A stretch of DNA of 39,183 bases from positions 1 to 39,183 of the forward strand of contig MVRA01000182.1 in assembly GCA_002067315.1 (NCBI GenBank), written 5' to 3'. The notes under the pieces are model-generated. The model was not told the DNA's origin. It ran no database searches and saw only the letters and a list, made by a program, of their open reading frames with translations. Positions 7,901 through 31,562 of the stretch are shown here, one piece after another (positions within the stretch are counted from its first letter, which is position 1; each line of letters starts with the position of its first letter). The translations under genes and the position numbers were made by a program. This DNA comes from Methanocella sp. PtaU1.Bin125 (lineage in GTDB: Archaea > Halobacteriota > Methanocellia > Methanocellales > Methanocellaceae).

Positions 7901-8083
7901 AGCTGGAAAGGGCACAGGCGTCATTAAATTTTTATATCAGTTTTACCAGAGAAAAGGGAAAAGAAGCAAAATTATGCTGGATAATGCCGACGCCGGATAA
8001 TCATTCGCAGCCAGCACAGGTACTATCCTGATAGGGGCCGGCCGGGGCTGACACTGTGACCGGACCGGAGTCCGCCGCTCCTG

Positions 8084-8446
8084 TCATGTCGCCACTACCC
8101 GGTCCGGGGCTACGGCGTTTCCTTCCAGCGCATACATGATGCCGTCGTTCTCGATATACTTGATCCGGCCCGCGACCGGATCGGCACCCGGGTTATCTTG
8201 CAGGCAGCGCAGCCGGTCCACGGCCGCCTGCGGCAGGCGGGCCGCGATACCGTCGATGATGGTGTAGGTGTACTTGATGACCCCGCCCAGGCCCTCGATA
8301 TATTTCACGTCTTCCTGCGTCACCGGGCTCTGGAAGACGATGATCACGTTCGCGGCCGGCCCCGCGGCAACGGCGGGCGCCGGGCATGCGGCGGACAGGG
8401 AGATGATGAACGTGCATACGAGCACTATTGCGGTGATCTTTTTCAT
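8084..8446 (-). CDS. Secreted standalone inhibitor-I9 (subtilisin propeptide-like) protein
   Basis: A 120-residue protein. Residues 1-28 form a signal peptide (MKKITAIVLVCTFIISLSAA...AVAA). The rest resembles the I9 propeptide fold of subtilisin-like proteases: NVIIVFQSPVTQEDVKYIE, then GGVIKYTYTIIDGIAARLP and a final KYIENDGIMYAL segment. In proteases this domain acts as an intramolecular chaperone and inhibitor; as a free protein it may inhibit a secreted subtilase. No protease gene is adjacent. I start at ATG 8446 because GGAGGATA lies seven bases upstream; an earlier in-frame start at 8512 would bury the signal peptide. Confidence 0.75.
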   Translation of the reverse strand: MKKITAIVLVCTFIISLSAACPAPAVAAGPAANVIIVFQSPVTQEDVKYIEGLGGVIKYTYTIIDGIAARLPQAAVDRLRCLQDNPGADPVAGRIKYIENDGIMYALEGNAVAPDRVVAT

Positions 8447-14777: not shown

Positions 14778-15042
14778 GGCGATCATATAATATTGGCCAT
14801 ATAAAGATAAATAACATGCGGTATGCCGTTTTATACTCAGGTTCGGGCCATTTCGGACATCGGACTTTAGTACAGGGCACAGGAGACACCGCAAAAACCG
14901 TCACCATTATCGCGTCAGACAGGATAGTGTATAAAAGCATCCCCAACGGCCGCATGTGGCGCTGGCGCATTTTTTATCGGGCGTTTTCGGCGGTTATTGA
15001 TAGTACAACAGCGAAGGCGTCAAAAGGTTTTTAACATCAAAA

Positions 15043-15070
15043 GTAATAAGAATATTAATTATAGTATTAC
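15043..15070 (+). promoter_or_regulatory. NikR-like operator upstream of nikR
   Basis: Perfect half-sites GTAATA and TATTAC are separated by exactly 16 bp (extendable to AGTAATA/TATTACT). This is the same geometry as the E. coli NikR operator (GTATGA-N16-TCATAC). It follows a TATA-like TTTTTAAC (about 15027-15034) and precedes the nikR start by 20 bases, which fits autorepression. Confidence 0.8.
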
Positions 15071-15090
15071 TATTGACACGGAGACACAGC

Positions 15091-15513
15091 ATGGAACAGG
15101 AATTAATGCGCATCGGGGTGTCCCTGCCGGACAACCTCCTCGGCCGCTTCGACCAGATCATAGAGAAGCGCGGCTACTCCTCCCGGTCGGAGGGCATCAG
15201 GGACGCCATCCGCAACTACATCATGCACTACGAGTGGTACAACGAGGTGGAGGGCGCCCGCATCGGCATCATCACCATGATCTACGACCACGACCAGCGG
15301 GGGCTGGTCAACAACCTGACGGACATCCAGCACGAGTTCATGGACATGATCAAGTCCTCGGTCCACGTGCACCTCGACCATGACAACTGTCTCGAGATCA
15401 TCATGCTCCAGGGCGAGGGCCAGAGGGTCAAGGAAGTCGCCGAGAAGATGATGGCCCTGAAGGGCGTGAAGCACGTCAAGCTGACCACGATATCGCCGAA
15501 CGCGGAGCTATAG
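15091..15513 (+). CDS. nikR: Nickel-responsive transcriptional regulator NikR
   Basis: A 140-residue regulator with an N-terminal ribbon-helix-helix DNA-binding domain ([18 protein letters not shown], then [17 protein letters not shown]). The C-terminal ACT-like nickel-binding domain has His81, His92, His94 and Cys100 ([12 protein letters not shown]), the high-affinity square-planar Ni site. In other organisms Ni-NikR represses nickel uptake genes. GGAG upstream supports ATG 15091; a TTG six codons earlier is unlikely. It heads an operon with the cbiQ and cbiO genes and carries a perfect NikR-type palindrome in its own promoter. Confidence 0.96.
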
Positions 15514-16471: not shown

Positions 16472-17323
16472 TTGGAAACAATATTCGACTTGAGGAATGT
16501 TTCGTATACGTATCTCGGCAAATTCGAGGCGCTTCGCGAGATCGACCTGAAGATCGGCCGCGGGGAGCAGGTTGCGATCATGGGCGCCAACGGCAGCGGA
16601 AAATCTACACTGCTGTCCATCCTGAATGCCCTGATCTACCCGACCTCCGGCGAGTTCTACGCGTTCGGCAACCTGGTGACCGAGGATGCCTTCGATACGC
16701 TGCAGGCGGGCGAGTTCAACCGGTATTTCCGCCGGAAGACCGGCTTCGTCTTCCAGAACCCCGACGTCCAGATGTTCTCTTCCACGGTCTACGACGAGAT
16801 CGCCTTCGGGCCGCTGCAGCTCGACCTGCCCGGGGAGGAAGTGAAGCGGCGCGTGGACGACGTCATCAAGATGATCGGCATCGAAAAGCTCCGCGACCGC
16901 GCCCCGCACACGCTGAGCGGCGGGGAGAAAAAAAAGGTCTGCATCGCTTCGGTTTTGGCCAGCAGCCCCGACGTGCTGCTCCTCGACGAGCCCACCGCCG
17001 GCCTGGACCCGCGGACGCAGCTGTGGCTGATCGAGCTGCTGCACGAGCTGGGTCATGCGGGCAAGACCATCGTGACGGCAACCCACGACCTCGATGCGGT
17101 CGAGCACATCAGCGAGCGGGCGATCGTCATGGGCGAAGACCACCGTATCAGGGTCGATACGCGGAGTTCCGTCGTGGTTAATGACCTGGACCTGCTGCTG
17201 TCCACTAACCTCATCCATAAGCACATGCATCGCCACGGCGCGATCACCCATCACCATATCCATTCCCATGAGGGCGAACACCAGCACGGGCATAACGGGC
17301 CCGAGGGGGAAAGGATGCCGTGA
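16472..17323 (+). CDS. cbiO: ECF nickel/cobalt transporter ATPase CbiO with His-rich tail
   Basis: A 283-residue ABC ATPase with Walker A GANGSGKST (38-46), Q-loop FVFQNPDVQ, signature LSGGEKKK (about 147-154), Walker B VLLLDEP and H-loop TATHD. It energises uptake of Ni2+ or Co2+ through CbiM/CbiQ. The C-terminal 45 residues are a His-rich tail (HKHMHRHGAITHHHIHSH and beyond) that probably binds metal in the cytoplasm. The start is TTG with AGGTG upstream. The gene overlaps the following HD-domain gene by TGATG. Confidence 0.94.
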   Translation: METIFDLRNVSYTYLGKFEALREIDLKIGRGEQVAIMGANGSGKSTLLSILNALIYPTSGEFYAFGNLVTEDAFDTLQAGEFNRYFRRKTGFVFQNPDVQMFSSTVYDEIAFGPLQLDLPGEEVKRRVDDVIKMIGIEKLRDRAPHTLSGGEKKKVCIASVLASSPDVLLLDEPTAGLDPRTQLWLIELLHELGHAGKTIVTATHDLDAVEHISERAIVMGEDHRIRVDTRSSVVVNDLDLLLSTNLIHKHMHRHGAITHHHIHSHEGEHQHGHNGPEGERMP

Positions 17324-17928: not shown

Positions 17929-18244
17929 TCTGCGATTGGCGGATCGTTGGTTACACGATTATAAAAAAATATAACAATAGATGATAAAAATTGATAAGTT
18001 TTATTAAAACCGCATAACGATCGTATACAATAGACGACGATACATAGCCCGCGATCCGGGAACACTATAATAAATTATAATAGTTACGACGGTTGCCGAT
18101 TTTTATTAACGCCCGGAATCGTTTAGAGATCGTGACAGGTCATCGTATTGTACTGTAGGACGAAGATAAATTTTATATATTTAAAAAGTGTTACGAATAG
18201 AAAATAATTTATAACTAAATTAGTAATTAGTAATTGGTGATATT
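17929..18244. other. AT-rich intergenic region with the cbiM promoter
   Basis: No gene seen. The right part holds TTTATATAT (18172-18180), the NikR-like box (18188-18215) and the cbiM ribosome site GGTGAT. The left part is AT-rich and unremarkable. Confidence 0.6.
18188..18215 (+). promoter_or_regulatory. NikR-like operator upstream of cbiM
   Basis: Half-sites GTGTTA and TATAAC are separated by 16 bp, starting eight bases after the TATA box TTTATATAT. This is the same spacing and placement as at nikR, with weaker symmetry. Confidence 0.6.
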
Positions 18245-19443: not shown

Positions 19444-19523
19444 CGACGGAGGTCGCCCGTGTCACGACGGAGGTCGCCCGTGTCACGACGGAGGTCGCCC
19501 GTGTCACGACGGAGGTCGCCCGT
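19444..19523. repeat. Tandem repeat, 21-bp unit, nearly four copies
   Basis: The unit CGACGGAGGTCGCCCGTGTC plus one A is repeated perfectly three times, followed by a 17-base fourth copy. There are no spacers, so it is not a CRISPR array. It lies immediately downstream of the 3' end of the minus-strand structured RNA and next to an alternating GCGCGCGCG tract. Confidence 0.9.
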
Positions 19524-19529
19524 ATAATA

Positions 19530-19641
19530 CACAGGTTGTGTCGCGCAGGACTTTATGAGGTGGTATATGAATAAGTAGTTGTTCAGGAGGAGGTTTTCGA
19601 CTTGCCCCTGCGCGACCCACCTGGCGCTTGTGTTACAATTT
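19530..19641 (-). ncRNA. Candidate nickel-controlled structured small RNA, copy 1
   Basis: On the minus strand, TATATC (19668-19663) precedes a NikR-like box, and the predicted start lies near 19641. The RNA would contain AGGTGG (19563-19558 pairs with 19622-19617) and a perfect 10-bp helix, GTCGCGCAGG with CCTGCGCGAC (19616-19607 with 19549-19540). The two helices interleave as in a pseudoknot. The loop carries AACCTCCTCCTGA (about 19596-19584), containing the anti-Shine-Dalgarno core ACCTCCT. All of these parts recur in copy 2 at 31369-31486. Both ends are estimates. The strand is inferred from the promoter; the plus strand has a small alternative frame. Confidence 0.6.
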
Positions 19642-19657
19642 TTTAATTATGTATTAC
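19630..19657 (-). promoter_or_regulatory. NikR-like operator of small RNA copy 1
   Basis: On the minus strand, GTAATA and TAACAC are separated by exactly 16 bp, starting five bases after TATATC. The layout TATA, box, RNA is the same as at copy 2. Confidence 0.65.
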
Positions 19658-19794
19658 TTGTTGATATATTTTTCTATTATTGTAGCAAAAATAGACGTTT
19701 CGTTCATTTATCAATTTAAAGTCAAGACAAAAGAATTCTCTTAATGAGCTTGATTCATGGTTGTCCGAAAAAGCCCCGCCAGAGCCCGATTTTT

Positions 19795-30597: not shown

Positions 30598-30888
30598 AAA
30601 GAAAAGGGATTATATCCTTTTGCGGAGGACATATTGGCCTGCATTGATAAGATAGAAAAATATTCCCGGCGCATGTCTTTCGATGAGTTCTGCGCTAATG
30701 ACATGGCCGTGGACGCAGTCATAAGGAACTTCGAAGTGATCGGAGAAGCCGTCAAAAAAATCCTGGAAGAGGTTAAAGGGAAATATGCGGATGTCGAATG
30801 GAAAGAAGCCGCGGGCTTCAGGGACGTTCTTATCCACGACTATTTTTCGATTGACAAAAATATCGTTCGTCGAATTACCTGTGCATAG
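30590..30888 (+). pseudogene. hepT: Broken HepT (HEPN, DUF86) toxin gene
   Basis: ATG 30590, with AGGTCA upstream, encodes MSKKKRDYIL. The frame is then lost at the T-run 30618-30621; one missing base would give DYILFAEDILACIDKIEKY, the normal HepT N terminus. The rest of the HEPN domain follows in the restored frame, including RDVLIHDY, the RxxxxHxY active site with the Tyr that MntA modifies. The C terminus stops early (DKNIVRRITCA) exactly where a repeat shared with 31055-31145 begins, so about 20 normal residues are missing. Ribonuclease activity is probably lost. Confidence 0.82.
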
Positions 30889-30948
30889 CTGCAGTGAATG
30901 CCGTTTCCAAGGCTCAGCGTAGCACTGTAAACTCGGACGGGCGCGACG
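30859..30948. repeat. Dispersed repeat, copy 1 (truncates hepT)
   Basis: This 90-bp stretch aligns with 31055-31145 along its length. Shared blocks include AATATCGT-CGTCGA, ATGCC-TTTCC and AGGCTCAGCGT. It supplies the last codons of the broken hepT. Confidence 0.75.
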
Positions 30949-31010
30949 ACCGCGACGACCGCGACGTTAAAAGAAAGAGAAAAAGTCTATCCATGTAGGG
31001 CTATTTTTTA

Positions 31011-31152
31011 AGAGAAACGTTGCGCCCGTCGCGTTTCGTCGCGGTCGTCGCGAGAATATCGTCCGTCGAGTTGCCTATATACTGCTTCAATGGATGCCAT
31101 TTCCGAGGCTCAGCGTTGTACTGTATACTCGCGACGGGCGCAACGTTTCTCT
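31011..31152. mobile_element. MITE-like element with 23-bp perfect terminal inverted repeats
   Basis: 31011-31033 (AGAGAAACGTTGCGCCCGTC then GCG) is the exact reverse complement of 31130-31152. The 142-bp unit has no coding capacity and contains copy 2 of the dispersed repeat (31055-31145). I could not find a clear target duplication at its edges, so mobility is an inference. Confidence 0.6.
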
Positions 31153-31368
31153 GCGAATTGTTCTAACAGGGATAGTCTATTTCTCTTTGTGTTAACGTCG
31201 CGGGCCCCGGTGCGAGAATGGCCGACGAGCCCGCACCGGGCCCCCGATCGTTCATAGACCTGCAACATGCCGAATAAAGCCGGAAGAGACGCTTCATCGG
31301 GGCGAGATCGAGCGACGGCCAGCCTTTAGTCGGCGGCACCCCGGACAGGCAAATCGAATATCCTCGAA

Positions 31369-31486
31369 ATAAAAAGGCTATGTCGCGCAGGACCTTATTG
31401 AGAGGTGGTTTCATTTAATAAGGGTTTTCAGGAGGAGGTTAACTTGAAATCCCTGCGCGACCCACCTACTGTATGTGTTACGAATA
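31369..31486 (-). ncRNA. Candidate nickel-controlled structured small RNA, copy 2
   Basis: This is the second copy of the element at 19530-19641. On the minus strand AGGTGG (31467-31462) can pair with CCACCT (31408-31403). GTCGCGCAGG (31461-31452) pairs with CCTGCGCGAC (31391-31382), again interleaved. The C-rich loop AACCTCCTCCTGA lies at 31441-31429. The 21-base spacer between that loop and the inner CCACCT has the same length as in copy 1 but a different sequence. A GCCTTTTT tract after the last helix (31377-31370) would serve as terminator. The TATA-like TTATATC (31514-31508) and a NikR-like box lie upstream. The ends are estimates. Confidence 0.6.
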
Positions 31487-31502
31487 ATATATTATATGTT
31501 AC
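31475..31502 (-). promoter_or_regulatory. NikR-like operator of small RNA copy 2
   Basis: On the minus strand, GTAACA and TAACAC are separated by exactly 16 bp. The preceding TATATCAATAAG nearly matches TATATCAACAAG at copy 1. Confidence 0.65.
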
Positions 31503-31562
31503 TTATTGATATAATTTACTATAAACGTAATACATAATGGCAAGAATCCGGGCGCCCTTCGT

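Follow-up and report, generated by a model that had tools for sequence, protein, structure and literature searches.

Background

RyhB and other bacterial metal-sparing small RNAs (sRNAs) are under the control of metal-responsive regulators and lower the use of the metal. For nickel, a metal-sparing sRNA is s-SodF (PMC9294342). In Helicobacter pylori, the sRNAs NikS/IsoB (HPnc4160), Nrr1 and Nrr2 are repressed by NikR and nickel, and NikS pairs with mRNA leaders, resulting in a translation block (PMC5385501, PMC8322730). Among archaeal sRNAs, sRNA154 of Methanosarcina mazei carries an anti-ribosome-binding-site (anti-RBS) sequence in loop 2, and sRNA41 masks the RBSs of the nickel-containing ACDS operons (PMC5867862). 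The NikR signal was delineated by Rodionov et al. (2004) as GTGTTAC-[N13/14]-GTAACAC, with an everted half-site order in one species (PMC545781).

We found no nickel-responsive sRNA of archaea in the literature; the cases that we found come from H. pylori and Streptomyces. Methanogens have a high need for nickel, which is required by methyl-coenzyme M reductase, hydrogenases and CO dehydrogenase; to our knowledge, little is known of how they ration it.

Results and discussion

NikR-type operators at two predicted RNA genes

The window analyzed here is a stretch of 39,183 nucleotides from Methanocella sp. PtaU1.Bin125 (contig MVRA01000182.1). It contains nikR and nikMNQO. NikR, CbiQ/NikQ and CbiM/NikM exceed the curated NCBIfam cut-offs, and NikO, NikN and a nikABCDE-like transporter were named from the best-matching families, with scores below the cut-offs of those families. 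With nikR present (its more likely start codon is the ATG at 15091) and the nickel transporter genes carrying a common site type, the locus has the sequence features of a NikR regulon. Two further nikR paralogs are encoded elsewhere in this genome (locus L121, G000:C102), at C102:7481-7906 and C102:6758-7177, and are 71% and 54% identical, respectively, to the nikR of the window.

Two elements in the window, c1 and c2, share the same layout on the minus strand, namely, an archaeal BRE/TATA box followed by AGTAAYAY-N14-GTAACAC, upstream of a hairpin (Table 1). Two GTAACAC-type half-sites, 14 bases apart, overlap the promoter in both. The half-site and the spacing agree with the published signal (PMC545781), the half-site order here being direct; across the sites, the order is mostly direct, not inverted. 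Judging from the sequence, the operator would lie past the TATA box but ahead of the predicted start, that is, in a repressing position. The earlier note on this DNA had tied the small RNA to nickel genes, and this tie proved to be stronger than was apparent at that time because the NikR-type operator overlaps the small-RNA promoter.

Table 1. Coordinates of the predicted RNA elements and of the nikR- and nikM-associated features in the window
Feature	Position	Strand	Remarks
c1 BRE/TATA box GAAAAATATATC	19663..19674	-	conserved in 7/7 elements
c1 NikR-type operator AGTAATAC-N14-GTAACAC	19630..19658	-	published half-site and spacing; type as at nikM and nikR
c1 predicted small RNA	19530..19636	-	start inferred from TATA box; end uncertain
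c1 closing stem, 5' arm GTCGCGCAGGG	19606..19616	-	0/60 shuffles reach the stem
c1 first anti-SD-like loop motif AACCTCCTCCTGAA (contains AACCTCCTCCTGA)	19582..19595	-	
c1 second anti-SD-like loop motif ACCACCTC	19557..19564	-	predicted openness; c1/c2 identity
c1 closing stem, 3' arm TCCTGCGCGAC	19540..19550	-	shuffle test
c2 BRE/TATA box GTAAATTATATC	31508..31519	-	
c2 NikR-type operator AGTAACAT-N14-GTAACAC	31475..31503	-	
c2 predicted small RNA, ending in U-rich tract (CCTTTTTATTTC)	31366..31481	-	both ends predicted
c2 closing stem, 5' arm	31451..31461	-	shuffle test
c2 first anti-SD-like loop motif AACCTCCTCCTGAA	31427..31440	-	
c2 second anti-SD-like loop motif ACCACCTC	31402..31409	-	c1/c2 identity
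c2 closing stem, 3' arm	31382..31392	-	shuffle test
nikR, presumed repressor of the RNA genes	15073..15513	+	NCBIfam NF002169 at 230.9 bits (cut-off 111)
NikR-type site before nikR, inverted pair AGTAATA / GTATTACT	15042..15071	+	
NikR-type site before nikM	18188..18216	+	

The c1 and c2 elements are ~75% identical paralogs, with the similarity confined to the promoter and the hairpin, and unlike flanks. Each loop is closed by a perfect predicted stem. For six of the seven elements of the family described below, the closing stem was unmatched by any of 60 dinucleotide shuffles, despite the differing stem sequences, and control stems next to other NikR-type sites were ordinary in the shuffles, with the exception of one stem within the nikR coding region. 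No convincing reading frame was seen by eye inside c1 or c2. In keeping with the earlier reading of c1 as a small RNA, the promoter, closing stem and exposed loop give both elements the appearance of sRNA genes. Rfam covariance models, including those of metal riboswitches, yielded no match at the gathering threshold in the entire window, and only chance-level matches around c1. An H/ACA guide RNA was rejected as a candidate: the stem is followed by GAC-ACA in c1 but by GAC-ATA in c2, the other members differ, and the sole H/ACA match near c1 is at chance level and on the opposite strand.

A switch based on pairing of the 5' AGGTGG with the loop, also suggested in the earlier note, did not withstand comparison with shuffled loops: the complement, CCACCT, exists in both c1 and c2, but the duplex (-9.5 and -10.2 kcal/mol, respectively) is no better than those of the shuffled loops (p 0.25 and 0.16), and the pairing is not kept in c3 or p1. 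More simply, the AGGU can lengthen the closing stem through predicted AGGU/ACCU (c1) and AGGU/GCCU (c2) pairs.

Repeats lie close to both elements. Directly downstream of c1 (19444-19526), there are four tandem 21-nt repeats with the minus-strand unit GGGCGACCTCCGTCG, which could fold into a mini-hairpin (CGAC-CUCC-GUCG) whose loop resembles the anti-SD. Beside c2 (30859-31203), long repeats occur in both direct and inverted orientation, and one inverted repeat is perfect over 23 nt (AGAGAAACGTTGCGCCCGTCGCG); these may belong to a small mobile element.

The loop motif

The window has exactly two copies of the 13-mer AACCTCCTCCTGA, one at 19583-19595 (19584-19596 in the earlier note, off by one) and one at 31428-31440; both are on the minus strand and, as claimed in that note, have the same sequence. 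As a bare 13-mer (up to 2 mismatches), two matches are unremarkable, given that 19 of 100 shuffles reach two; the weight of the finding comes from the context instead, that is, the hairpin, conservation, openness and recurrence. Both copies occupy the equivalent position in one type of hairpin, with the arms GTCGCGCAGGG...TCCTGCGCGAC. The two motifs AACCTCCTCCTGAA and ACCACCTC are the best-kept part of the loop, with 22 of 22 positions identical between c1 and c2 compared to 12 of 38 in the remainder of the loop. These motifs are predicted to be mostly unpaired in c1 and c2 (0.83-0.91), and the c1 loop is without predicted internal structure; in c3, p1 and p3, the loop motif is predicted to be unpaired about half of the time. 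The loop includes ACCTCCT, which matches the core of the archaeal anti-Shine-Dalgarno (anti-SD) sequence at the 3' end of 16S rRNA, in line with the mimicry first pointed out in the earlier note; a search of this assembly for the 3' end of its own 16S rRNA gave no match. A transcript of the plus strand, with GGAGGAGG in the loop, was considered and discarded because the TATA box and the operator mark the C-rich-loop strand in every member.

A family of elements in two genomes

An initial similarity search picked up two more copies of the promoter in this genome, both on contig C61 and close to a CbiQ-type ECF transporter. These promoters head c3 and c4, which have other stems, AGAGTACGTG/CACGTACTCT and GTAATAATATGCAG/CTGCATATTATTAC, and CCTTCCTCC, CCGCCTC and ACCTCCC in their loops. 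In a relative (G003), p1 (stem GCGCAAGATT/AATCTTGCGC, loop CCCTCCTCC) and p2 (stem ATATCGGCGCAAGT/ACTTGCGCCGATAT, loop TTCACCTC) lie together in a locus that has two nikR genes. A sequence-only model built from these six promoters (R1) finds all six training promoters and a seventh, outside the training set, that of p3 (E 1.3e-7), the closing stem of which is interrupted (GTATGAT..GCAGG/CCTGC..ATCATAC). The neighbors in G003 include CbiX, FecCD/periplasmic-binding ABC transporter and ZnuA/ABC-3 genes, and NikR. The earlier note considered that absence of the loop from homologs would speak against it; the seven elements from the two genomes, c1-c4 here and p1-p3 in G003, carry CCTCC, CACCTC or GCCTC-type loops.

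No members were found in G001, which belongs to the same genus, or in G002. DNA similarity searches across 40 relatives gave, outside this genome, only promoter-level or chance matches, and the exact stem pattern was not found in the relatives. When R1 was run over 393 genomes of the phylum, there was one further match in the score range of the family (G049, E 1.3e-7), located directly before a nikM/cbiM gene. Weaker matches in G154 and G241 likewise directly precede nikM-type genes, and most of the other weak matches are unassigned. These three matches lend the link of the operator to nickel support that does not depend on the RNA elements. A NikM-based contig scan led to Methanothrix and bacterial nik loci, of which the archaeal ones contained no strong match to the promoter model.

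Four elements (c1, c2, c3 and p1) stand alone, and three of the seven are located in gene leaders. The p2 element belongs to the leader region of a nikR paralog, between the promoter and the start, and c4 (L032, ~7960-8200, minus strand) and p3 (L120, ~17130-17240, minus strand) are followed by a strong SD and by short Lys/Ala-rich frames, for which the start codon would be CTG. The frame after c4 has a zinc-ribbon-like end, CxxC...CxxC.

Additional NikR-type sites were noticed in these genomes. A NikR-type operator precedes a gene for a ZnuA-like metal-binding protein in L149 (G000:C76:31951), L135 (G002:C8:110385) and L120 (minus strand, ~18500; the copy for which the Pfam ZnuA assignment was tested), which suggests a previously unrecognized NikR-regulated metal ABC transporter. 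In L126 (G002:C8, ~122552), a NikR-type site is followed by a hairpin with no CCTCC in the loop and by a terminator-like GACCCCTGAAGAGGGGTC-TTCGGTTTTC, possibly another nickel-controlled leader.

Anti-SD-like motif enrichment and target search

In 190 kb of related loci, there are 18 long stems after AT-rich DNA, and a CCTCC/ACCTC-type loop is present in 6 of the 6 promoter-linked stems compared to 1 of the 12 others, in a test that was set up after the motif had been noticed in the family and in which c1 and c2, being paralogs, are not fully independent. C-rich anti-SD-like motifs recur in the loops of members with unrelated stem sequences. The loops pair with the consensus SD better than shuffled loops do, modestly for each member (p 0.02-0.31), and the presence of an anti-SD in an accessible loop is strong in c1 and c2, and weaker in p3.

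The genome matches to the shared loop motif were checked for starts, except for five of the weaker ones and a few others, and none that agreed at 12 or more of the 14 bases fell convincingly on an RBS. The sole perfect match outside c1 and c2, C46:21018, was rejected as a target, with no start codon followed by an open frame; it apparently runs antisense to the terminal part of a Gly-rich gene. Among the hydrogenase start sites that were inspected, there was no clear enrichment, a result that is weak either way given that the starts came from a simple script. CO dehydrogenase, approached via the Prismane family, was dropped: this family gave one protein per genome, the one here having the N-terminus of a hybrid-cluster protein.

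Proposed role and alternatives

The reading we favor, with about an even chance of being right, is that these elements are a family of NikR-repressed structured RNAs that would be made at low nickel and whose loops would mask ribosome-binding sites. Put more specifically, and held tentatively at somewhat below even, this would be an sRNA family of Methanocella-like archaea that keeps the promoter and operator, a stem of free sequence and anti-SD loops, and acts as a translation brake during nickel starvation. Nickel-loaded NikR would repress the RNA genes via the operator. When nickel is scarce, NikR would come off this site, located past the TATA box but before the transcription start, and the RNA would be produced alongside the nickel transporters. 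The perfect stem, variable in sequence from member to member, would close a large loop and keep one or two C-rich anti-SD segments single-stranded; by base-pairing with the purine-rich ribosome-binding sites on target mRNAs, these segments would prevent translation. The targets would probably be genes that are dispensable under nickel starvation. What the DNA sequence itself shows is the loop motif, the stems, the type of promoter and operator, the family and its nickel-gene surroundings; transcription, the nickel response, ribosome-site masking and the targets are what we infer from it.

Alternatively, the elements could act mainly in cis, as attenuators or as regulatory leaders on transcripts under NikR control; the stand-alone copies would then be leaders with an early end or without the gene that once followed. 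A cis role is possible for the three members in gene leaders, given the location of p2 ahead of the nikR paralog and of c4 and p3 ahead of an SD and a short Lys-rich frame, and also because the c4 loop is complementary, with a bulge, to the SD downstream of c4 itself. However, c1, c2, c3 and p1 have no same-strand gene behind them, c1 and c2 head toward convergent gene ends, this most similar pair consists of two stand-alone elements, and the window contains no match to a known riboswitch family. Overall, we regard a mainly cis-acting function as unlikely.

It is less probable still that the C-rich loops of a NikR-controlled RNA have a protein as their partner, or titrate free ribosomes, and do not pair with particular mRNAs. 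The motifs are short and alike between members, the target searches gave no long specific target, and the tandem repeats with CUCC mini-hairpins downstream of c1 would fit such a role, but the data point to no protein partner and the anti-SD match of the motifs exceeds that of shuffled loops. Finally, we consider it highly improbable that c1 and c2 are not functional RNAs at all, having arisen by duplication of intergenic sequence or from a mobile repeat now in decay, with loops that are C-rich by chance. Their status as paralogs and the repeats and palindromes near c2 are compatible with this possibility, whereas the likeness of c1 and c2 stops at the promoter and hairpin and excludes the flanks, on which ground a mobile repeat was rejected; moreover, the other members combine a common promoter with unrelated stems, unlike a copied repeat, and the loop motif is enriched in promoter-linked stems.

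Comparison with known systems

If confirmed, the proposed NikR-repressed RNA family would be a type of nickel-starvation RNA that has no reported counterpart in archaea, and it offers a concrete, testable NikR-RNA circuit. It also represents a structured RNA that is recognizable through its promoter and architecture rather than through the stem sequence, and is therefore missed by similarity searches. One close parallel is with NikS and the Nrr RNAs of H. pylori, which are sRNA genes with a NikR site at the promoter, as is predicted here from sequence. Those systems are bacterial, whereas the elements described here have an archaeal promoter, a long closing stem and anti-SD loops. With sRNA154 and sRNA41 of M. 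mazei, they would share the status of intergenic archaeal sRNAs and the anti-RBS action; the M. mazei RNAs respond to nitrogen, not nickel, and are not known to be homologous. Unlike those RNAs, the present elements form an entire family with one type of operator and differing stems. Compared to RyhB and s-SodF, both the regulator and the RNA are different, and the likeness lies in the regulatory logic, in which the archaeal RNAs would have a nickel-sparing role.
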